Source of the DNA: Streptomyces sp. AM 2-1-1
GTDB lineage: Bacteria; Actinomycetota; Actinomycetes; Streptomycetales; Streptomycetaceae
Reading direction: 5' to 3'
Assembly (NCBI RefSeq): GCF_029167645.1
Contig: NZ_CP119147.1
Span: 992,001-1,056,000 of the forward strand
Length of the DNA: 64,000 nt
Each line of letters starts with the position of its first letter. Position 1 is the first letter of the stretch. This document shows positions 7,780 to 48,920 of the stretch, piece by piece. The notes below the pieces were generated by a model, which searched no databases, had not been told where the DNA came from, and was given only the letters and a program-made list of their open reading frames with translations. The position numbers were made by a program, and so were the translations under genes.

Positions 7780-9924
7780 ATGAGCGCAGACAGACCTCTC
7801 CGTACCTCCACACCGGCGTTCCGGGGCCCTCGTGGCAGGGTCGCGCGGGTGGCCGCGCTCACCGCCGGAGCGACGCTGGGCCTCGGAGTGCTGTCGATGC
7901 CTCTCGCCGCGGCGAGCGGCGAGGCGGGAACGTCGACCGGCGCGGTGGCGCTCGCGGCTGACGAGGTGTCGGCCCCGGCGGTCGTCCTGGGCTCGACATC
8001 GGTGAAGGCGGGTGGGGAGGTCACCTTCACCGCCACCGGCTTCCCGGCCGCGAGCAAGGTCAGCGTCAAGCTCGACGACGCCACCCTCCTCGCTCAGTTC
8101 ACCAGCGGCGCCGACGGCAGCGTCTCCGGCACCGTCACCGTGCCCGGCTCCACCGCACCCGGCACCGACCACTGGCTCCGCTTCCTCGCCACCGGCACCA
8201 GCGTCAAGAGCGCCGCCCTCACCGTGACCGCCACACCCGCGGTCACACTCGGCACCACGTCGGTGAAGGCGGGCGGGGAGGTCACCTTCACCGCCACCGG
8301 CTTCCCGGCCGCGAGCAAGGTCAGCGTCAAGCTCGACGACGCCACCCTCCTCGCTCAGTTCACCAGCGGCGCCGACGGCAGCGTCTCCGGCACCGTCACC
8401 GTGCCCGGCTCCACCGCACCCGGCACCGACCACTGGCTCCGCTTCCTCGCCACCGGCACCAGCGTCAAGAGCGCCGCCCTCACCGTGACCGCCACCACGC
8501 CCACGCCCGAGCCGGCGACACCCAAGATCCGGCTCGGGGCCACCAAGGTCGCCGCGGGCGGCACCGTCTCCTTCGATCTGTCGGGCTTCGTCACGGGGCA
8601 GACCATCACGGTCAAGCTCGACGACCAGACGATCCTGAAGCAGTGGACCGCGGCCGTGAAGGCGGACGGCACGTTCTCCGGCACCGTGACGGTGCCGGCC
8701 ACGGCCGGCGCCGGCGCGCACTGGCTCCGCATCCTCGCCCCGGACCCCTCCACCAGCCTGAAGGCCGACTTCACCGTCACCTCCTCACCGTCCACGGGCG
8801 GTTCGAGCAACGGTGGCAGCACCGGAGGAAGCACCGGCGGCAGCGGCTCCACGGGCGGCGGCTCCACCGGCGGTTCCAGCACGGGCGGCGCCGGCACGGG
8901 TGGCTCCCCCACGGGCGGCGGCTCCACCGGGGGCTCCGGCACGGGCGGCACGAGCACCGGCGGCACCAGCACAGGCGGCTCGTCCACCCCGTCAGGTACC
9001 TCCGCGACCATCACCGCCGGTTCGAACGTGGCCGCCGGCGGCAAGGTCTCCTTCCGGCTGACGGGTTTCCCCGCCGGCCAGCAGATCACCGTGAAGCTGG
9101 ACGACGGCGAGATCATCGGACAGTGGCCCGACGGCATCGCCTCGGACGGCTCGTTCTCCGGTACGGTCACCGTCCCGGCGACCGCGACGAAGGGCGCACA
9201 CTGGCTGCGGTTCCTCGCCCCCAACCCGTCCACCAGCATGAAGGCCGACTTCACCGTGACCACCGGGGCAGCCGCCTCGGCGACCACCGGCGGCACGGGC
9301 GGCACGGGCACGAGCGCGGCCGGGGCCAACGGCTCCACCGCAGCGGGCGGCGCGGTTGCGGCGATCCCGGCCGCCACGGGTGCGCCCGCCAGCGCGAGCA
9401 ACGCCAGTGGGGCCAAGGCGGAGATCACCGCCAGCGAGGTCCAGCCTGGAGGGAAGCTCCACTTCAAGGTCACGGACTTCCCGGCGTCCCAGGTCGTCAC
9501 CATCAAGCTCGACGACGACGCCATCCTCGGGCAGTGGGACATCGACGCCCAGGGGTCGTTCGAGGGTGACGTGGAGATACCGGCCGAGGTGACCCCCGGG
9601 GCGCACTGGCTGCGCTTCCTGGCACCCAACCCCGCCACGACGCTCAAGGTCGACTTCACCGCCCTGGCCGCCGACCCCACCGCGGCCGCAGCGGTCGCCG
9701 CCCCGTCCCCGGACGCGGCGGCGACCACCACCGACCCGACCGTCAACGCCGCCTCGGTCCAGGACGTCGGGACAGGTGTCTCGTACGCGACGATCGCCTG
9801 GGCGGCCGGAGCGGCGGCCGTCGGCGGCGCGGTCGGAGCGGCCGGCGCGACCACCTTCGTCCTGCGGCGCCGCAAGCCGGACGCGCCGCGGACACCTTCG
9901 ACGTCGCAGCCCGCAGCCGTCTGA
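7780..9924 (+). CDS. iron-regulated, membrane-anchored surface protein with Ig-like repeats
   Basis: 714 residues. The ATG at 7780 is preferred because AGGAG sits 7 bases upstream and a signal peptide follows (RGRVARVAALTAGATLGLGV then AAA-type cleavage). Five copies of an ~85-residue beta-sandwich-like unit start near residues 68, 155, 250, 409 and 547, each containing the pattern KLDD..(I/L)..QW/F...G.F.G.V.VP...GAHWLRFLA. The first two are almost identical. A Ser/Thr/Gly-rich spacer (about residues 337-406) separates units 3 and 4. The C-terminus has one membrane segment (TIAWAAGAAAVGGAVGAAG) followed by LRRRK, so it is anchored in the membrane and not by an LPXTG sortase signal. Role unknown; the iron box suggests surface binding of iron, haem or siderophore. 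Confidence 0.85.
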   Translation: MSADRPLRTSTPAFRGPRGRVARVAALTAGATLGLGVLSMPLAAASGEAGTSTGAVALAADEVSAPAVVLGSTSVKAGGEVTFTATGFPAASKVSVKLDDATLLAQFTSGADGSVSGTVTVPGSTAPGTDHWLRFLATGTSVKSAALTVTATPAVTLGTTSVKAGGEVTFTATGFPAASKVSVKLDDATLLAQFTSGADGSVSGTVTVPGSTAPGTDHWLRFLATGTSVKSAALTVTATTPTPEPATPKIRLGATKVAAGGTVSFDLSGFVTGQTITVKLDDQTILKQWTAAVKADGTFSGTVTVPATAGAGAHWLRILAPDPSTSLKADFTVTSSPSTGGSSNGGSTGGSTGGSGSTGGGSTGGSSTGGAGTGGSPTGGGSTGGSGTGGTSTGGTSTGGSSTPSGTSATITAGSNVAAGGKVSFRLTGFPAGQQITVKLDDGEIIGQWPDGIASDGSFSGTVTVPATATKGAHWLRFLAPNPSTSMKADFTVTTGAAASATTGGTGGTGTSAAGANGSTAAGGAVAAIPAATGAPASASNASGAKAEITASEVQPGGKLHFKVTDFPASQVVTIKLDDDAILGQWDIDAQGSFEGDVEIPAEVTPGAHWLRFLAPNPATTLKVDFTALAADPTAAAAVAAPSPDAAATTTDPTVNAASVQDVGTGVSYATIAWAAGAAAVGGAVGAAGATTFVLRRRKPDAPRTPSTSQPAAV
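8000..8234 (+). repeat. tandem repeat, copy 1 (235 bp)
   Basis: Nearly identical to 8261-8495 at an offset of 261 bases (87 codons). I find one mismatch, T at 8013 versus C at 8274. The repeat encodes the first Ig-like unit of the surface protein. Confidence 0.95.
8261..8495 (+). repeat. tandem repeat, copy 2 (235 bp)
   Basis: Second copy of the duplicated unit; it encodes repeat 2. The other three units of this protein are diverged, so this pair is a recent or recently homogenised duplication. Confidence 0.95.
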
Positions 9925-14467: not shown

Positions 14468-14878
14468 GTGACGCCCATGCAGTCCTACACGATCGGCCAG
14501 GCGGCCCGCCTTCTGGGCGTGAGCCCGGACACCGCACGACGGTGGGCCGACGCGGGCCGGGTGGCCACGCACCGCGACACGAGCGGGCGGCGGCTCATCG
14601 ACGGCGGCGACCTGGCGGCCTTCTCGGTCGAGGTCGCCGGCACTGCCGGGAGCGGCGGCGAGGGGGAGGTCCCGTACACCTCCGTGCGCAACGCCTTCGC
14701 GGGCATCGTCACGGCGGTGAAGCTCGGCGACGTCGCCGCGCAGGTCGAGATCCAGGCCGGTCCGCACCGGCTGGTCTCCCTGTTGACGCGCGAGGCGGTG
14801 GAGGAACTCGGCCTGGAGGTCGGCATGGAGGCCACCGCCCGCGTGAAGTCGACCAACGTGCACATCGACCGGCTCTGA
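14468..14878 (+). CDS. MerR-type HTH plus Mop (TOBE) molybdate-binding regulator
   Basis: 136 residues from the GTG at 14468; ATG 14477 is an alternative. An N-terminal helix-turn-helix of the excisionase/MerR type (YTIGQAARLLGVSPDTARRWADAGRV) is followed by a single Mop/TOBE domain (TSVRNAFAGIVTAVKLGDVAAQVEI ... VKSTNVHID), which binds molybdate. It is placed just upstream of modABC on the same strand. It probably senses molybdate and controls the transporter, although a 354-bp gap shows that modA has its own promoter. Confidence 0.85.
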   Translation: MTPMQSYTIGQAARLLGVSPDTARRWADAGRVATHRDTSGRRLIDGGDLAAFSVEVAGTAGSGGEGEVPYTSVRNAFAGIVTAVKLGDVAAQVEIQAGPHRLVSLLTREAVEELGLEVGMEATARVKSTNVHIDRL

Positions 14879-15232
14879 GCGGTCCCGCTCACCGCACCCT
14901 TTTCTCCGCACACCCGCACACCCGCACACCCGCACGTACGCACACCCGCACGTACGCACACCCGCGGCCTCACGTGCGGGGGGCGGACCGCTGGCCGGAG
15001 ACAGCCGATCGCGCCCGAGTCAGCCTCCCCGCATCTGCCCCTGAAAGAACCTGCCCCCCACTGCTCCTGCGAGGCAATCGGGGTCTTCCCCTTGGCATCT
15101 GCGCACGTATGATCGATCCGTGCGCGCCGCCGTCCCGGTGATCGGCGTGCACCACACCGACCGTGCGAGCACCGGGAGACCAGCGCGGAGGAGTCGTCGG
15201 GCTCCTCCGGAGGACCAGAGGGAGCAGACTCC
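14879..15232. other. intergenic region before modA, 354 bp
   Basis: Contains a short tandem repeat (14909-14965) and a candidate -10 hexamer TATGAT at 15108-15113. I see no recognisable molybdenum-cofactor riboswitch and no gene. Confidence 0.5.
14909..14965 (+). repeat. short tandem repeat (CACACCCG / CACGTACG)
   Basis: Seven or so copies of an 8-base unit, first CACACCCG repeats, then alternating CACGTACG and CACACCCG, just downstream of the Mop regulator. Likely a slippage-prone low-complexity tract. Confidence 0.85.
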
Positions 15233-16977: not shown

Positions 16978-18053
16978 GGATCGATGCGCCCACCGCGTCT
17001 CCGGCCGCCGCCGGGGGACTCGACGCCCGGCTCGTCGTCGACCGGGGCGCCTTCCGCCTGGACGTGGCACTGAGCGCCCGGCCCGGCGAGGTGGTCGCCC
17101 TGCTGGGGCCGAACGGCGCCGGGAAGACGACCGCGCTGCGCGCCCTCGCGGGTCTCACCGAGCTGACCGAAGGCCATCTGCGGCTGGACGGGGCCGCGTT
17201 GACCGACCGGCCGCCGGAGTCGCGCCCGGTCGGCGTCGTCTTCCAGGACTATCTGCTCTTTCCCCACCTCTCGGCCCTGGACAACGTGGCCTTCGGTCCG
17301 CGCTGCCGGGGCGCGAGCAAGTCCGAGGCCCGCGCCCAGGCGGCCGTGTGGCTGGACCGCATGGGGTTGGCCGACCGGGCCGGGGCGAAACCGCGCCGGC
17401 TCTCCGGCGGCCAGGCCCAGCGCGTCGCCCTCGCACGCGCGCTCGCCACCCACCCCCGGCTGCTGCTGCTGGACGAGCCCCTCGCCGCGCTCGACGCCCG
17501 CACGCGCCTCGACGTACGGGCCCAGCTCCGCCGTCATCTCGCGGAGTTCGAGGCGGTCGCGGTGCTGGTCACGCATGATCCCCTGGATGCCATGGTCCTC
17601 GCCGACCGTCTGGTCGTGATCGAGCACGGCGGCATCGTCCAGCAGGGCACGCCGTCGGAGATCGCCCGGCGCCCCCGTACCGACTACATCGCACAGTTGG
17701 TCGGCCTCAACCTCTACCGGGGGCACGCCGAGGGGCACACGACGGTCCGGCTCGACGCGGGTCCGGCGATCACCACCACCGAGGATCTCGTCGGCCCGGT
17801 GTTCGTCGCGTTCCCCCCGAGCGCGGTCACCCTGCACCGCGAACGGCCCACCGGTTCCAGCGCCCGCAACGTCTGGCGCTGCGCGGTCGACGGGCTGGAG
17901 ACGCACGGCGACCAGATCCGCGCGGACCTCGGCGGCGAACTGCGTCTCGCCGCCGACCTCACCACGGTCGCCGCCGCGGAGCTCGATCTGCACCCGGGGG
18001 CGACGGTCTGGGCCACGGTCAAGGCCGCGCAGACACACGCCTATCCCGCCTGA
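16974..18053 (+). CDS. modC: molybdate ABC transporter ATP-binding protein ModC
   Basis: 359 residues from ATG 16974, overlapping the modB stop (ATGA). Walker A GPNGAGKTT, Q-loop VVFQDYLLFPHL, signature LSGGQAQRVALARAL, Walker B LLLLDEPLAALD and the switch histidine VTHDP are all present. The last ~70 residues form a TOBE-like domain (WRCAVDGLETHGDQIRADLGGELRLAADLT), as usual for ModC. It energises molybdate import. A membrane molybdopterin-type oxidoreductase encoded at 25.7-26.9 kb is one possible user of the metal (inference). Confidence 0.92.
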   Translation: MRIDAPTASPAAAGGLDARLVVDRGAFRLDVALSARPGEVVALLGPNGAGKTTALRALAGLTELTEGHLRLDGAALTDRPPESRPVGVVFQDYLLFPHLSALDNVAFGPRCRGASKSEARAQAAVWLDRMGLADRAGAKPRRLSGGQAQRVALARALATHPRLLLLDEPLAALDARTRLDVRAQLRRHLAEFEAVAVLVTHDPLDAMVLADRLVVIEHGGIVQQGTPSEIARRPRTDYIAQLVGLNLYRGHAEGHTTVRLDAGPAITTTEDLVGPVFVAFPPSAVTLHRERPTGSSARNVWRCAVDGLETHGDQIRADLGGELRLAADLTTVAAAELDLHPGATVWATVKAAQTHAYPA

Positions 18054-18419
18054 GGAAGCGTGATCCTCCCGGGCAGGAGCCGACCCGTGCGGCCGGGTGG
18101 CGCCTTGCGGCTGCAGGTGACACCACAAGGTGGCGCGAAGTGGCACCACCTGGCGCCACCCGCCGCCATGCGACACCACCCGATGCAGCCTGACGCCACC
18201 TGGTGCCACGGGGTGCCACGGGGACCTCCCCCCACCAGCACGGCGGCTCTCGCACTCCCCAGGAGCGCCCTCATGCTCCGCGCGCCACTCCCCCGCCCCC
18301 CATGCCCCATGCCCCATGCCCCACCATCCACCCGGGTCGCGGGCTCCACGGCCCCTTCCCTCACCACAATGACGCCCTGCCGCTTGCACATGGCGCCACA
18401 GTGGTGCCATGATGGCGCC
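18054..18419. other. 366-bp intergenic region filled with phased TGGYGCCA-like sites
   Basis: No gene is evident. It contains a run of 8-base half-palindromic sites every 10 bases from 18131 to 18218, earlier weaker matches at 18098 and 18118, a short ATGCCCC triplet repeat (18301-18321) and three sites at 11-base intervals over the promoter (18391-18420). Confidence 0.75.
18131..18218 (+). promoter_or_regulatory. 10-bp-phased operator-like array (nine positions)
   Basis: Starting at 18131, 18141, 18151, 18161, 18171, 18181, 18191, 18201 and 18211 the 8-mers read TGGCGCGA, TGGCACCA, TGGCGCCA, CGCCGCCA, CGACACCA, CGATGCAG, TGACGCCA, TGGTGCCA and GGGTGCCA. Most are within one or two bases of the palindrome TGGCGCCA, exactly one helical turn apart. 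Ribbon-helix-helix repressors bind tandem sites with this spacing, and the next gene encodes such a fold. Confidence 0.7.
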
Positions 18420-18420
18420 A
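18384..18420 (+). promoter_or_regulatory. promoter with three 11-bp-phased operator sites; leaderless start
   Basis: Sites TGGCGCCA (18391-18398), TGGTGCCA (18402-18409) and TGGCGCCA (18413-18420) are 11 bases apart. They cover a candidate -35 TTGCAC (18384-18389) and -10 CATGAT (18408-18413, spacer 18). The -10 position places the transcript start at about 18420, the A of the ATG, so the mRNA may be leaderless. Binding of a repressor here would block the promoter. Confidence 0.6.
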
Positions 18421-18932
18421 TGGACCTCACCCCGTATGTCGACTCCCTCCGCCGCGAACTCGCGGTGGCCGCCGATGCCGGCGGCGACGAAGCCCGCGAG
18501 CTGGCCGAGAGGCTCACCGCTCCGCTGGAGTCGGCGACCCGCCTGACTCTGCTCAACGTGCTCTCCGCCGCGATGGACGAGGTCACCCGCGAGCTCGCTC
18601 CGGGCTCGGTCGACGTACGGCTGCGAGGACTCGACCCCGACTTCGTCGTGACCCGGCCGCCGGCCGATTCCCCCGCGGGGGCGGCCGCCGCCGTCGAGCC
18701 GGCCGCCTCGCAAGCACCCGCCGAAGGTGACGAGGGCGGCACCACCGCCCGGGTCAACCTGCGCCTGCCGGCCCACCTCAAGGCGCGCGCCGAGGAGGCC
18801 GCGGGCCGTGAGGGCCTCTCGGTCAACGCGTGGCTCGTCCGGGCCGTGTCGGCCGCCGTCGACGGCGGCGGCCGACCGCGTACGGCGGACAAGGCCCAGG
18901 TCGGACAGAGCTTCACCGGCTGGGTCCGCTGA
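18420..18932 (+). CDS. ribbon-helix-helix (HicB/Arc-like) regulatory protein
   Basis: 170 residues from the ATG at 18420. The N-terminal half (MDLTPYVDSLRRELAVAADA ... LNVLSAAMDEVTREL) is alpha-helical. A Pro/Ala linker leads to a C-terminal ribbon-helix-helix: strand TTARVNLRLPAHLKARAEEA followed by GLSVNAWLVRAVSAAV, the pattern of HicB/Arc-type DNA-binding folds. The C-terminal tail ends SFTGWVR. No toxin gene is adjacent; the next gene is DUF4097. Probable autoregulator of a four-gene operon including the ABC exporter, with targets being the phased sites upstream (inference). Confidence 0.75.
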   Translation: MDLTPYVDSLRRELAVAADAGGDEARELAERLTAPLESATRLTLLNVLSAAMDEVTRELAPGSVDVRLRGLDPDFVVTRPPADSPAGAAAAVEPAASQAPAEGDEGGTTARVNLRLPAHLKARAEEAAGREGLSVNAWLVRAVSAAVDGGGRPRTADKAQVGQSFTGWVR

Positions 18933-19030
18933 GGACGGCCGGCGCCGCCGCACCCCTTCACCCATGACCCCGTCCCGCCGGCGGGGAGACCCCACGAATC
19001 GACCCCACGACCCAAGAGGACGGGACAGCC

Positions 19031-19882
19031 ATGCCTTCTTTCGACACTCCTGAAGCGATCTCGGTCACCGCCCGCGTGGAGGCAGGCTCCGTGCAGTTCA
19101 CCGCGGACGACCGCCTCGACACCGTCGTCGCGGTGCGCCCCCGGGACCCGAAGCGGGACGCGGACGTACGGGCGGCCGGCCAGACCGAGGTGACGTACGC
19201 CCGCGGCGCACTGACCGTCAGGACGCCCAAGTCCGGCCTCTTCGGCCGTACCGGCATCGTCGACGTGGCGGTCGACCTGCCGTCGGGCTCGCGCGTCGAC
19301 ATGACCGGCGCCTGGGCCCAGGTACTCGGCGAAGGGCGCCTCGGCGAGGTCCGCGTGAAGACCTCGTCCGGCGACGTACGCCTCGACACCACCGGGCCCC
19401 TCCATCTGACCGCCTCCCACGGCTCGATCAGCGTGGACCGGATCGAGGGCAAGGCCGAGATCACCACCAGCTCCGGGAGCCTGCGCATCGGCATCATCGA
19501 CGGCCCCGCCGTCCTGAAGAACTCGCACGGCACCACGACCGTCCGTGCCGCGACCGGCGAACTGCGGGTGAGCGGCGCCCACGGCGACATCGAGATCCTC
19601 CGCGCCGAGGACTCGGTCACCGCCACCACCGCCTACGGCACCTTGCGCGTGGGCGAAGTGGTCCGCGGCACGGTCCAGCTGGAGACCAACTACGGGGCCA
19701 TCGAGATCGGCGTCCGCGAGGGCTCCGCCGCCTGGCTCGACGCGAGTTCGGGCTCCGGCCAGGTACGCAACACGCTCACCGCGTCCGAGGCTCCGGCCGA
19801 CCCCGACGGCGCCGACAACATCGTCGAGGTCCGCGCCCGCACCCGGCACGGCAACATCGACGTCCGCCGCGCCACGACCTGA
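19031..19882 (+). CDS. DUF4097-family beta-helix (putative adhesin-like) protein
   Basis: 283 residues. The ATG follows AGAGGACGGGACAGCC. Successive short beta-strand repeats of the form GEVRVKTSSGDVRLDTTGPLHL, ISVDRIEGKAEITTSSGSLRI and GTLRVGEVVRGTVQLETNYG are characteristic of DUF4097/putative adhesin right-handed beta-helices. No signal peptide or membrane segment is visible, so despite the family name it is probably cytoplasmic. It sits between the ribbon-helix-helix gene and a DrrAB-type exporter, a combination repeatedly seen in Streptomyces. Function unknown. Confidence 0.8.
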   Translation: MPSFDTPEAISVTARVEAGSVQFTADDRLDTVVAVRPRDPKRDADVRAAGQTEVTYARGALTVRTPKSGLFGRTGIVDVAVDLPSGSRVDMTGAWAQVLGEGRLGEVRVKTSSGDVRLDTTGPLHLTASHGSISVDRIEGKAEITTSSGSLRIGIIDGPAVLKNSHGTTTVRAATGELRVSGAHGDIEILRAEDSVTATTAYGTLRVGEVVRGTVQLETNYGAIEIGVREGSAAWLDASSGSGQVRNTLTASEAPADPDGADNIVEVRARTRHGNIDVRRATT

Positions 19883-19947
19883 CCGCGTGAGGGGCCGCCC
19901 TCGGCCCTTCCGCCCCCCTCGCCCCCTCCTCCGACCGGGAGATCCCC

Positions 19948-21003
19948 ATGCATGCCAATGTCATGTCCACGTCCAGCCAGGGCGGTGGCCTCCCGTCCCC
20001 GGCCGCCGTCTCCGCCGTCGGTCTGCGCAAGTCCTACGGCGACAAGACCGTCCTCGACGGCATCGACCTGCGCATCCCGGCCGGGTCCGTGTTCGCGCTC
20101 CTCGGTCCGAACGGGGCCGGCAAGACCACCGTCGTCAAGATCCTCTCCACCCTCGTCACCGCCGACGCGGGACAGGCGCAGGTGGCGGGCCACGACCTCG
20201 CCGCCGCTCCGCAGACGGTACGGGCCGCGATCGGGGTCACCGGACAGTTCTCCGCGGTGGACGGGCTGATCACCGGCGAGGAGAACATGCTCCTCATGGC
20301 CGACCTCCACCACCTCTCCAAGGCGGAAGGACGGCGGGTGGCCGCCGAACTGCTGGAACGGTTCGACCTCACCGAAGCGGCGCGAAAGCCCGCCTCCACC
20401 TACTCCGGCGGCATGAAGCGCCGCCTCGACATCGCCATGACCCTGGTCGGCAACCCGCGGATCATCTTCCTCGACGAACCCACCACCGGGCTCGACCCCC
20501 GCTCCCGCCACACCATGTGGGGCATCGTCCGCGAACTCGTCACCGGCGGCACCACCGTCTTCCTCACCACCCAGTACCTCGACGAGGCCGACGAACTCGC
20601 CGACCGCATCGCCGTCCTCCACGACGGGAGGATCGCCGCCGAAGGCACCGCCGACGAACTCAAACGCCTCGTCCCCGGCGGACACGTACGCCTCGCCTTC
20701 ACCGACCCCGACCGCTACCGCGGAGCCGCCACCGCCCTCTCCGACGCCTCCCGCGACGACGACGCACTCACCCTCCAGATCCTCAGCGACGGCAGCCAAC
20801 GCGAACTCCGCACCATCCTCGACCGCCTCGACGCCGCCGGCGTCGAAGCCGACCGACTCACCGTCCACACCCCCGACCTCGACGACGTCTTCTTCGCCCT
20901 CACCGGCGGCGAGACGGTCCCGAACCAGCAGGGCCCGCAGACCCGACAGCCCCCGCAGGCCCGGCAGACCCCGCGGATCCAGCCCGAGGAGGACGTCCGA
21001 TGA
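19948..21003 (+). CDS. ABC exporter ATP-binding protein, DrrA-like
   Basis: 351 residues; ATG 19948 with GGGAGA 6 bases upstream. Walker A GPNGAGKTT, ABC signature YSGGMKRRLDIAMTL, Walker B IIFLDEPTTGLDPRSR, and a C-terminal DrrA-type extension (DLDDVFFALTGGE). Family members power drug or lipid-like export with a DrrB-type permease, which is the next gene (ATGA overlap). The C-terminus is Gln/Pro rich (QQGPQTRQPPQARQTP). Confidence 0.9.
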   Translation: MHANVMSTSSQGGGLPSPAAVSAVGLRKSYGDKTVLDGIDLRIPAGSVFALLGPNGAGKTTVVKILSTLVTADAGQAQVAGHDLAAAPQTVRAAIGVTGQFSAVDGLITGEENMLLMADLHHLSKAEGRRVAAELLERFDLTEAARKPASTYSGGMKRRLDIAMTLVGNPRIIFLDEPTTGLDPRSRHTMWGIVRELVTGGTTVFLTTQYLDEADELADRIAVLHDGRIAAEGTADELKRLVPGGHVRLAFTDPDRYRGAATALSDASRDDDALTLQILSDGSQRELRTILDRLDAAGVEADRLTVHTPDLDDVFFALTGGETVPNQQGPQTRQPPQARQTPRIQPEEDVR

Positions 21004-21791
21004 GTTCCCTCTCCCTCGCCGTGCGCGACTCGTCCACGATGCTGCGCCGCAACCTGCTGCACGTCCGGCGCTACCCGTCCCTGACGCTCAACCTGCTGCT
21101 CACGCCGGTGATGCTGCTGCTGCTCTTCGTCTACATCTTCGGCGACACCATGAGCGCGGGCATGGGAGGCGGCGGGGCGGACCGGTCCGACTACCTGGCG
21201 TACCTCGTCCCGGGCATCCTGATGCTGACCATCGGCGGAACCACCATCGGCAGCGCGGTCTCCGTCTCGATGGACATGACCGAGGGCATCATCGCCCGCT
21301 TCCGCACCATGGCGATCCACCGGGGATCGGTCCTCGTCGGACACGTCGTCGGCAGCGTGCTGCAGTGTGTGACGAGCGTGGTCCTGGTCGCCGCCGTCGC
21401 GGTGGCCATCGGTTTCAGGTCCACGGACGCGACCGTCCTGGAATGGGTGCTGGCCGTGGGGCTGCTGGCGCTCGTCTCCCTGGCCCTCACATGGATCGCG
21501 GTCGGGATGGGCCTGTCCAGCCCGAACGTCGAGGCGGCCGGCAACAACGCGATGCCGTTGATGATCCTGCCGCTCCTCTCCAGCGCCTTCGTCCCGTTGG
21601 ACGCGATGCCCGGCTGGTTCCGGCCGGTCGCCGAGTACCAGCCCTTCACCCCGGCCATCGAGACCCTGCGCGGACTCCTGCTCGGCACGGGGATCGGCAA
21701 CAACGGCCTCATCGCCGTCGCCTGGTGCCTCGGGCTGGCTCTGCTCGGATACTTCTGGTCCACCGCCCTCTACGACCGCGAGCCGAAGTAG
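21000..21791 (+). CDS. ABC exporter permease, DrrB/ABC-2 type
   Basis: 263 residues starting at ATG 21000 inside the preceding stop. Six hydrophobic segments typical of ABC-2 permeases (LTLNLLLTPVMLLLLFVYIFG; LVPGILMLTIGG; VVLVAAVAVAIGF; VLAVGLLALVSLALTWIAVGMGL; MPLMILPLLSSAFVPLDAMP; LIAVAWCLGLALLGYFW). The motif SSAFVPLDAMPGWFRPVAEYQPFTP is typical of daunorubicin-resistance type permeases. Forms an exporter with the ATPase encoded just before; substrate unknown. Confidence 0.9.
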   Translation: MSSLSLAVRDSSTMLRRNLLHVRRYPSLTLNLLLTPVMLLLLFVYIFGDTMSAGMGGGGADRSDYLAYLVPGILMLTIGGTTIGSAVSVSMDMTEGIIARFRTMAIHRGSVLVGHVVGSVLQCVTSVVLVAAVAVAIGFRSTDATVLEWVLAVGLLALVSLALTWIAVGMGLSSPNVEAAGNNAMPLMILPLLSSAFVPLDAMPGWFRPVAEYQPFTPAIETLRGLLLGTGIGNNGLIAVAWCLGLALLGYFWSTALYDREPK

Positions 21792-21809
21792 TCCGTACGA
21801 GCGATACAG

Positions 21810-21840
21810 CGGCGCACCCGACACCCCGTCGGGTGCGCCG
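21810..21840 (+). terminator. terminator hairpin after the ABC exporter
   Basis: 13-bp perfect arms (21810-21822 and 21828-21840), loop ACCCC, 19 bases after the permease stop. It ends the ribbon-helix-helix/DUF4097/ABC operon. Confidence 0.85.
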
Positions 21841-21889
21841 TCCGTGGCCTGTCCGGGGAACGCCCGGGGCGCCCCTTAGCGTGGCGGCC

Positions 21890-22984
21890 ATGCGTGTACT
21901 CGTCACAGGCGGAGCAGGGTTCATCGGGTCGCACATCACCACGGCCCTGGTCGCGGCCGGGCACCGGGCGGTGGTGATCGACGCGTTGCTACCCACCGCC
22001 CATCCTGCCGGGACGGCGCCGGAAGGGCCGTACGAGCGGCTGATCGTCGCGGACGTGCGGGACCCCGGGGCCGTGGCCGGTGCGTTGGCGGGAGTCGACG
22101 CGGTCTGCCACCAGGCGGCGATGGTGGGACTGGGCAAGGACTTCGCCGACGCACCGCTCTACGTCGGCTGCAACGACCTGGGCACGGCGGTGCTGCTCGC
22201 GGGGATGGCGGCGGCCGGGGTCCGGGATCTGGTGCTGGCCGGGTCGATGGTCGTGTACGGCGAGGGGAGGTACGACTGCCCGCGGCACGGGTCCGTCCGG
22301 CCGGGGCCGCGCGCCCGGCAGGATCTGGAGGCGGGCCGCTTCGAACCCCGCTGCCCCTCCTGCGGGGCGGACCTCGTGCCGGGGCTGGTCCCCGAGGACG
22401 CCCCGGCCGACCCCCGCAACGTCTACGCCGCCAGCAAGCTCGCCCAGGAGCACCTCGCCGCCGCGTGGGCGCGGGCGACGGACGGCCGGGCGGTGTCGCT
22501 CCGCTACCACAACGTGTACGGGCCGGGGATGCCGCGCGACACGCCGTACGCGGGAGTCGCCTCGCTGTTCCGGTCCGCGCTGGCACGCGGTGAGGCGCCC
22601 CGGGTCTTCGAGGACGGGGGGCAGCGACGCGATTTCGTGCACGTGACCGATGTCGCCGCCGCGGCGGTGGCTGCGCTGACCGCCCTGCCGCAGCGGGTCC
22701 CGGGGGTCCTCACCGCGTACAACACCGGTAGCGGGGAACCGCACACCATCGGCGAGATGGCGGCGGCGCTCGCCTCCGCGTACGGCGGTCCGCCGCCCGT
22801 CGTCACCGGGGAGTTCCGGCTCGGGGACGTGCGCCACGTGACGGCGGACTCCCGGCGGCTGCGCGCGGACCTGGGCTGGCTGCCGCAGGTGGCGTTCGCC
22901 GACGGCATGCGGGAGTTCGCGGCCGCGCCGCAGCGGGGAGGGGCGTCCGCGCCCCCGGGCGGTGCCCGTCTCGCGGACGCCTGA
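21890..22984 (+). CDS. NAD-dependent epimerase/dehydratase (extended SDR) with cysteine insert
   Basis: 364 residues from ATG 21890. N-terminal NAD-binding VTGGAGFIGSHITTALV, then SMVVYGEGRYDC, the catalytic YAASK motif and RYHNVYGPGMP, all typical of nucleotide-sugar epimerases. An insert after the active-site strand carries CPRHG and, about 32 residues later, CPSCG. This could be a zinc knuckle and also occurs in dTDP-L-rhamnose 4-epimerase-like enzymes. Likely makes a nucleotide sugar for the glycosyltransferases downstream. First gene of the 21.9-28.5 kb glycan-type island. Confidence 0.82.
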   Translation: MRVLVTGGAGFIGSHITTALVAAGHRAVVIDALLPTAHPAGTAPEGPYERLIVADVRDPGAVAGALAGVDAVCHQAAMVGLGKDFADAPLYVGCNDLGTAVLLAGMAAAGVRDLVLAGSMVVYGEGRYDCPRHGSVRPGPRARQDLEAGRFEPRCPSCGADLVPGLVPEDAPADPRNVYAASKLAQEHLAAAWARATDGRAVSLRYHNVYGPGMPRDTPYAGVASLFRSALARGEAPRVFEDGGQRRDFVHVTDVAAAAVAALTALPQRVPGVLTAYNTGSGEPHTIGEMAAALASAYGGPPPVVTGEFRLGDVRHVTADSRRLRADLGWLPQVAFADGMREFAAAPQRGGASAPPGGARLADA

Positions 22985-48043: not shown

Positions 48044-48811
48044 ATGGTGCAACTCAAGACGGAAACCTCCCTGGCCGCGATGCGTGAGGCCGGCCGGGTC
48101 GTGGCGCAGATGCTGACCGCCGCGCGCGAAGCGGCGAAGATCGGTGTCAGCCTGCGCGACATCGATGCCGTGGCCCACCAGGTGCTGCGCGACGCCGGTG
48201 CCGGATCACCCTTCCTCCACTACCACCCGCACTTCGCGCCGGTGCCCTTCCCCGCCGTGATCTGCGCGTCGGTGAACGACGCGATCGTGCACGGCGTCCC
48301 CGACGGATACCGGCTGCGCGACGGGGACCTGGTCAGCATCGACGCGGGTGCGACGCTGAACGGCTGGGTCGGCGACTCCGCGATCAGCTTCACCGTGGGC
48401 CGGGCCCGGCCCGCCGACACCCTGCTGATCGACACCGCCTACGCGGCGCTGGACGCGGGCATCGCGGCGGCCGTCGTCGGCAACCGCATCGGCGACATCG
48501 CCCACGCCATCGGTACCGTCTGCCGCTCGGCGGGGTACGGCATCCCCGAGGGGTTCGGCGGCCACGGCGTGGGCCGGTCCATGCACGAGGACCCGTCCGT
48601 GCCGAACGAAGGGCGCGCCGGGCGGGGGTTGCCCCTGCGCCACGGGATGGTGCTGGCGATCGAGCCGATGCTGATCGCCGGCGGCGGCGACTACTTCCGG
48701 CCGGACCAGGACGGCTGGACGCTCCGGACCACCGACGGCAGCCGGGCCGCCCACGCCGAGCACACGGTGGCCATCACCGACGACGGCCCGCGCATTCTCA
48801 CGGCGCTCTGA
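48044..48811 (+). CDS. map: type I methionine aminopeptidase
   Basis: 255 residues from ATG 48044. Metal ligands and family signatures: HYHPHFAPVPFP, ICASVNDAIVHGVPDGY, SIDAGATLNGWVGDSA, GFGGHGVGRSMHEDPSVPN and AIEPMLIAGG. It removes N-terminal methionine from new proteins. Streptomyces usually carry several paralogues. The divergent XRE gene and shared palindrome suggest that this is a regulated, accessory copy and not the housekeeping one beside secY/adk. Confidence 0.9.
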   Translation: MVQLKTETSLAAMREAGRVVAQMLTAAREAAKIGVSLRDIDAVAHQVLRDAGAGSPFLHYHPHFAPVPFPAVICASVNDAIVHGVPDGYRLRDGDLVSIDAGATLNGWVGDSAISFTVGRARPADTLLIDTAYAALDAGIAAAVVGNRIGDIAHAIGTVCRSAGYGIPEGFGGHGVGRSMHEDPSVPNEGRAGRGLPLRHGMVLAIEPMLIAGGGDYFRPDQDGWTLRTTDGSRAAHAEHTVAITDDGPRILTAL

Positions 48812-48840
48812 GCCCCGCGGCGAACGCGCCGACCCCCCGA

Positions 48841-48920
48841 GCGGGCACGCCGACCCCCGAGCGGGCACGCTGATCCCCGCGCGGGCACGCTGAGCCCCGC
48901 GCGGGCACGCCGATCCCCGC
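48841..48920 (+). repeat. 20-bp tandem repeat, four units
   Basis: Units at 48841, 48861, 48881 and 48901, each reading GCGGGCACGC-YGANCCCC-GM with one to three differences. A fifth degenerate unit precedes them at 48821. Located 30 bases after the aminopeptidase stop, in non-coding DNA. Confidence 0.9.

Follow-up and report, generated by a model that had tools for sequence, protein, structure and literature searches.

The window examined in this work, a stretch of 64,000 nucleotides from Streptomyces sp. AM 2-1-1, carries a ribbon-helix-helix (RHH) regulator gene at 18420..18932 on the + strand, which starts with ATG and encodes a protein of 170 aa. The genome is 7.2 Mb in size, and the closest relatives of this protein are Streptomyces proteins. 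An RHH domain had been assigned to the gene in a sequence-only reading of the same DNA, and the fold was confirmed here for the C-terminal residues 107–151 (18738..18872, + strand). The N-terminal domain (residues 1–83; 18420..18668, + strand) consists of three helices and a beta hairpin with a mean AF2 pLDDT of 92.6, and no clear relative of it was seen in the PDB. Pfam assigns the protein to HicB (PF05534) with 21.5 bits against a cut-off of 21, whereby the match covers residues 112–142 only, the DNA-binding end. Database names for the family include HicB antitoxin and even histidine kinase. No match to HicA_toxin (PF07927) was found in the whole genome of the window, and the neighbours of the gene encode DUF4097 and DrrA/DrrB proteins rather than HicA. 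The low-confidence tail ends (18918–18929) in GWVR in 85 of 161 orthologues and in GWAR in another 18 of the 161, a possible interaction or degradation motif.

Downstream on the + strand follow a DUF4097 (Toastrack) protein of 283 aa (19031..19882; PF13349, 42.4 bits), a DrrA-type ABC ATPase (19948..21003; TIGR01188, 314.7 bits against a cut-off of 312.45) and a DrrB-type ABC permease (21000..21791; PF01061, 86.4 bits), with the end of drrA overlapping the DrrB gene by 4 bases. The locus thus combines PF13349, TIGR01188 and PF01061 in one Toastrack-ABC operon, and both the DUF4097 protein and the DrrAB exporter expected from the sequence-only reading were found. A close-orthologue set was assembled from the best 80 of at least 384 confirmed loci in genome contigs (hereafter the best 80). 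DUF4097 was present in all of these 80 loci and in 76 of 85 further orthologues, a set that includes two repeats, both without DUF4097. DUF4097 is the constant operon partner, and DrrA/DrrB are present in many lineages.

Two clusters of 8-bp sites precede the regulator gene, and they were scored by direct reading against TGG[CT][AG]CCA. The distal cluster is a ladder of nine slots with a period of 10 bp (18131–18218). Full 8/8 agreement was found at 18141, 18151 and 18201, 7/8 at 18131, 18191 and 18211, and 6/8 at 18161 and 18171, while slot 18181 (CGATGCAG, 4/8) is degenerate and no site. Hence, eight of the nine 10-base-phased 8-mers that had been proposed between 18131 and 18211 lie within two bases of the consensus TGGYRCCA. 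Two outermost distal sites (18098..18125), TGGCGCCT at 18098 and TGACACCA at 18118, each match at 7/8 and are 20 bp apart with a weak intervening slot at 18108 (5/8); the first ladder rung at 18131 lies 13 bp beyond 18118. The promoter cluster comprises three 8/8 sites spaced by exactly 11 bp, namely TGGCGCCA at 18391..18398, TGGTGCCA at 18402..18409 and again TGGCGCCA at 18413..18420, the last base of which is the A of the ATG. Numbered from this A, these sites are referred to as −29, −18 and −7; all were read directly, and all hold conserved positions. The exact form TGGYGCCA, searched on either strand, is found at seven positions of the 64-kb window, of which six belong to these clusters. 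As a chance control, 300 Markov copies of the region were scanned, with any period from 7 to 14 allowed. The best nine-slot run (period 10) scored 61/72, whereas the highest score in any copy was 45; for three-slot runs, the corresponding scores were 24/24 (period 11) and 19. The array sites are real.

Between the two clusters lies a heptamer microsatellite, CCCCATG repeated 3.7 times (18298..18323), which may be behind the longer spacer of 180 bp found here and may vary the spacer length between strains. Three other repeats were observed in the window. A 261-bp tandem repeat of 1.9 copies with 99% matches (7999–8495) is probably a recent duplication, and about five 20-bp units CCCCGCGCGGGCACGCCGAT, each with the palindrome CCCGCGCGGG, are found at 48808–48920. 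At 14907–14965, CGCACACCCGCACGTA is repeated 3.7 times, starting about 30 bases past a small reading frame (14468–14878) that we take by eye to be MerR-like.

On the other side of the array, the reading frame of an ABC ATPase, which we take to be ModC-type, ends at 18053. The possibility that the sites control, or are controlled by, this upstream gene was considered and rejected, as a relative of the ABC ATPase is found upstream in just 3 of the best 80 loci (33–42% identity). A crude ORF and GC3 rule, applied to 74 loci, called a nearest upstream gene of the same orientation in 47 and a divergent one in 22, and found none in the other 5. Since the upstream gene is not conserved, the sites belong with the RHH gene.

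The conservation of the promoter cluster was then assessed with positions counted from the A of the ATG and at most one mismatch allowed. Among the best 80 of at least 384 loci, 75 have a site at −29, 76 at −18 and 54 at −7. Altogether, the 80 upstream regions contain 695 sites compared to a Markov-control mean of 79.6. Sites close to the promoter are most often 11 bp apart (131 pairs), and those further upstream 10 bp (181 pairs). A wider search covered three overlapping sets of 197, 394 and 396 genomes, the third with a different query, and returned orthologue matches in 67, 143 and 46 genomes, respectively. The resulting 161 loci and the best 80 add up to 241, of which 4 repeat a genome, leaving 237 distinct loci from across the phylum. 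Under a rule of one mismatch to TGRNNYCA with a 1-base shift tolerated, both the −29 and −18 sites are kept in 211 of the 237 and at least one of them in 226, with neither in 11. Among the loci lacking both (11 of the 241), L148 and L178 have no usable start, and the other nine are remote relatives. Orthologues without the sites would have spoken against the sequence-only reading; for the promoter cluster, the opposite was found. The gene went undetected in 15 genomes of the same genus among those searched, and a second full-length copy is present in three others (L251, L252 and L253 in G610, G750 and G627, respectively). All three second copies carry −29 and −18 sites, the −18 site of L251 being poorer.

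The sites are interleaved with a conserved promoter. The −35-like element TTGCAC (18384..18389, + strand) has a conserved TTG, which is found at −36 to −34 in 75 of the best 80 loci and no more than one base away from this place in 77 of 81 loci from other families (those of 133 with sites in register). The −10-like element CATGAT (18408..18413, + strand) has a conserved A at −11 and T at −7, and both bases are kept in 77 of the best 80 and in 81/81 of the other-family loci in register. Both neighbouring sites contribute to this hexamer: its CA closes the −18 site, its final T opens the −7 site, and the linker lies in between. The sequence-only reading had placed the promoter cluster over the −35, the −10 and the ATG. 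Its three sites at 11 bp, the overlap of the second and third with the −10-like element and the extension of the third into the ATG are all borne out, while the first site lies just downstream of TTGCAC and does not overlap it. According to the base profile, the −18 site contributes the CA of the −10 and the TG of a possible extended −10, which T−15 and G−14 within this site could form. T−15 is present in 92% of the best 80 and in 53% of the 81 other-family loci, and such an extended −10 may account for the occurrence of TGGTGCCA as the −18 site in 54 of the best 80.

None of five Shine-Dalgarno-like 5-mers was found at −16 to −5 in the best 80 or in the 81 other-family loci (0/80 and 0/81). 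The mRNA is likely leaderless, with a transcript predicted to begin at the ATG. An N-terminal extension of the protein was considered, as the frame is open to 18060, and rejected: no more than 60 codons are open upstream of the ATG in 54 of the best 80 and 73 of the 81 orthologues, and more than 60 in the other 26 and 8, respectively. A generic consensus promoter scan of 17900–22000 returned no sigma-70-type site. Therefore, the promoter assignment rests on conservation, and it is this predicted promoter of the gene itself that the operator overlaps.

To count occurrences genome-wide, the exact pair TGRYRYCA-N3-TGRYRYCA was used. In 30 chosen genomes with the gene, 48 exact pairs were found, and coordinates place 43 of them at the RHH promoter; 28 of the 30 genomes contain the pair. 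In 25 genomes without a detected gene, the pair is absent from 23 and present in two. A reversed-pattern control gave 1 match in the 30-genome set and 9 in the 25-genome set, so the stray pairs look like chance matches at background level. A regulon was rejected on these counts, with 5 of the 48 pairs lying off the RHH promoter besides the two in the 25 gene-less genomes. In the genome of the window, one exact pair at 10 bp occurs elsewhere, inside a long perfect hairpin GGGGCCCTGGTGCCATATGGCACCAGGGCCCC that we read as a terminator. Sites scattered at random over the genome, the outcome that would have contradicted the sequence-only reading, were thus not what was found, as the pairs are nearly unique to the promoter. 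A single-target autoregulator appears to be the best reading of this distribution.

Further evidence on the reader of the sites comes from the RHH strand, which follows the pattern R-x-[N/T/S]-x-R across the orthologues and reads R-V-N-L-R in the window. Its central residue N113 (codon 18756..18758, + strand) is proposed as the specificity residue. Among distinct loci, G..C at bases 3 and 6 of the −29 site accompanies N113 in 116 of 126 cases, compared with 1 of 89 for T or S; at the −18 site, the corresponding numbers are 93 of 122 and 3 of 96. The −7 site covaries only weakly, with G..C present in 19 of 101 loci that have N and in 7 of 23 that have T; we ascribe this to the double duty of the site as part of the −10 and start codon. 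In 133 loci, residue 113 shares the most information with the site class of all 170 columns (0.721 of 0.908 bits, corrected by subtracting shuffles), followed by residue 163 with 0.479 bits. Within the site, the dependence on residue 113 falls on bases 3 and 6 (0.50 and 0.35 at −29; 0.22 and 0.25 at −18), with values of at most 0.07 for the other six bases. Mean locus GC is equal across the classes (N 0.715, T 0.710 and S 0.707). This is the pattern that a base contact from the RHH strand would be predicted to leave.

On a 126-locus tree, for which the strand was masked, the site class fits the residue class in 122 loci, and the residue class changes at least five times; a first, smaller tree had given agreement in 78 of 81. 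Well-supported branches hold a single independent N versus T/S pair, which does not suffice for a sign test, and with so few independent changes between N and T/S, shared ancestry may contribute to the covariation. By family, with 62 loci put in, eight of the ten N families and none of the 22 T/S families have G..C at −29. Both residue states, along with their matching −29 sites, also occur within one genus (L101 and L111, genus code g35) and within one genome (G607), where an N-type and a T-type paralogue (L201 and L246) coexist, each with the matching −29 class. Taken together, co-occurrence, near-uniqueness and the covariation of residue 113 with bases 3 and 6 support the earlier proposal that the downstream RHH protein reads the operator, and it likely does so.

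The distal ladder has a narrower distribution. With at least three of four rungs required at period 10 between −350 and −80, a ladder was found in 66 of the best 80 loci, in 9 of 27 same-genus loci from even genome samples (one more at period 11) and in 1 of 134 other-family loci (ten more at period 11); the same test applied inside the gene gave 0 of 80 and 1 of 134. A second test, which extended to −45 and asked for at least three rungs that each have another one exactly 10 bp away, gave 65 of 80, 13 of 27 and 3 of 134, respectively. When one mismatch was allowed at any base, mismatches in the rungs avoided bases 2 and 7 (2 and 4 of 250 rungs), and the two linker bases between rungs are degenerate, so the ladder is apparently kept by selection on the sites. 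Since it is scarce outside the close relatives while the promoter cluster stays, it looks like a variable lineage add-on. The suggestion that the two clusters interact through looping fared less well. Among 78 ladders, the distance to the promoter ranges from 21 to 188 bp, with 137–139 bp being commonest (35 of 78), and the helical phase shows no clear constancy. Looping with a conserved phase is not supported: the vector strength over 30 unique distances is 0.34 at a pitch of 10.5, and the value of 0.50 at a pitch of 10.0 is expected from the gain or loss of 10-bp rungs. The persistence of the promoter cluster in other families, where the ladder is scarce, lends looping no support either.

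Combined, these data indicate that the 170-aa RHH protein very probably acts as an autoregulator dedicated to its own RHH-Toastrack(-DrrAB) operon, most likely by repressing it. In the proposed mechanism, one RHH dimer would read each 8-bp palindrome TGRYRYCA, with strand residue 113 reading base 3 and, via the dyad, base 6; N113 would prefer G..C, and T or S would prefer A..T or mixed sites. Three dimers 11 bp apart, near one face of the helix, would sit over the spacer, the −10 and the start codon of the leaderless promoter and thereby exclude RNA polymerase. The upstream ladder, mostly of 3–7 further sites at 10 bp and present throughout much of Streptomyces and its close relatives, might add cooperativity and stabilize the complex, or take up protein. 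By way of the Toastrack protein, a signal from the membrane or the exporter would probably reach the RHH protein and lift repression. The large autoregulatory operator of the sequence-only reading is upheld in that RHH-linked sites lie over the gene's own promoter, while repression as opposed to activation is what this promoter overlap suggests. If clusters at 11 and 10 bp demand opposite twist, the operator might also be read as a supercoiling sensor, with the Toastrack protein tuning the free repressor. Side-by-side dimers of fixed geometry would then favour promoter DNA with about 11 bp per turn and ladder DNA with about 10, and overwound DNA would move the repressor to the ladder and open the promoter, with underwound DNA doing the reverse. 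We regard this elaboration as decidedly unlikely.

The RHH protein could instead be an activator, or a dual element switched by Toastrack, with the ladder recruiting or positioning RNA polymerase. Distal ladders upstream of the promoter in 65 of the best 80 loci are compatible with such a role, as is the precedent of AmrZ, an RHH protein described, in the part of the source consulted, as both repressing and activating (PMC3325190). However, the conserved part of the operator overlaps the −10 and the start codon, and in other families the period-10 ladder is found in that single locus of 134 despite a kept promoter cluster, which makes activation rather unlikely.

It seems highly unlikely that the array serves chiefly as a centromere-like or titrating platform in the manner of the parS of RHH ParB, with promoter control being secondary. 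The long array does recall RHH ParB/Omega, which according to the portion of PMC9499535 seen binds 7–10 tandem heptads overlapping promoters, and the RHH part gives weak PHROG matches to families called partition protein ATPase. Against this, no ParA lies beside the RHH gene in this neighbourhood, where the operon consists of DUF4097, DrrA and DrrB; DUF4097 is the constant partner, and the gene is undetected in the 15 same-genus genomes mentioned above. That a regulator other than the RHH protein reads the sites is extremely improbable: binding by the RHH protein is predicted from sequence and the independent changes on the tree are few, but the site class tracks residue 113 best of all columns, the exact pair is absent from 23 of the 25 genomes without a detected gene, and each G607 paralogue carries its matching −29 class. 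Finally, the 8-mers could be a product of chance or mutation, such as slippage repeats in GC-rich DNA that have no reader. The region is indeed GC-rich and holds a heptamer microsatellite between the clusters, yet the linkers are degenerate, mismatches avoid bases 2 and 7, the Markov controls are exceeded, and both cross-family conservation and covariation are seen, rendering this origin scarcely conceivable.

The preferred reading, an RHH autoregulator on its own operator, has several relatives among known systems. The met boxes are 8-bp palindromes arranged in tandem over a promoter, spaced by 8 bp and bound by one MetJ (RHH) dimer each, and MetJ regulates several genes with S-adenosylmethionine as co-repressor. 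The present operator resembles them in its tandem 8-bp palindromes over a promoter, with one dimer each proposed, and differs from them in its spacings of 11 and 10 bp and its single target. In MetJ, a strand Thr that reads the A of GAC would be the counterpart of the T/S type described here. In recognition, the protein would be akin to Arc, MetJ and AmrZ, while the long array over its own promoter is like that of Omega. The Arc repressor of phage P22 (1par, 1bdv; PMC12645479) has chains of about 53 residues; in the present protein, by contrast, an unrelated domain at the N-terminus precedes the C-terminal RHH domain, and the sites of the operator number from three to about a dozen. AmrZ of Pseudomonas aeruginosa (3qoq) is, according to the available part of PMC3325190, an autorepressor that reads GGC half-sites through K18, V20 and R22 as a dimer of dimers. 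It parallels the mode of action proposed for the present protein, autoregulation by an RHH protein whose strand residues would read bases, and differs in having two half-sites with a 5-bp linker, an RHH domain near the N-terminus and several targets. Omega/ParB of pSM19035 places one dimer on each of 7–10 tandem heptads over its own promoter, but in the portion of PMC9499535 seen these are contiguous, non-palindromic 7-bp repeats that serve plasmid partition with ParA.

An actinobacterial operon of Toastrack, ABC ATPase and permease with an RHH transcription factor is mentioned in one sentence of PMC11237479, and as far as the accessible text goes, this is probably the operon type found here. 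The part of that paper seen holds no operator sites, binding specificity or promoter layout, and no description of the operator was found in the open-licence PMC literature. Such an operon is thus already mentioned in print, and it is from Arc, MetJ, AmrZ and Omega that the present system is set apart by the periods of 11 and 10 bp, the C-terminal position of the RHH domain and its partners.

These results provide a testable operator and a role for an RHH family that is labelled HicB antitoxin or even histidine kinase in databases, and they tie this family to the Toastrack operon of several classes of Actinomycetota. They also describe a natural experiment in beta-strand DNA recognition, in which one residue and one base pair, together with its dyad mate, change in concert. 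If residue 113 reads the site as proposed, an N113T form would shift its preference from TGGCGCCA towards TGACGTCA, and the L201/L246 paralogues of G607 offer a natural pair for specificity tests. A further question raised by the finding is why additional sites, up to about eleven of them and at another period, occur in many Streptomyces.
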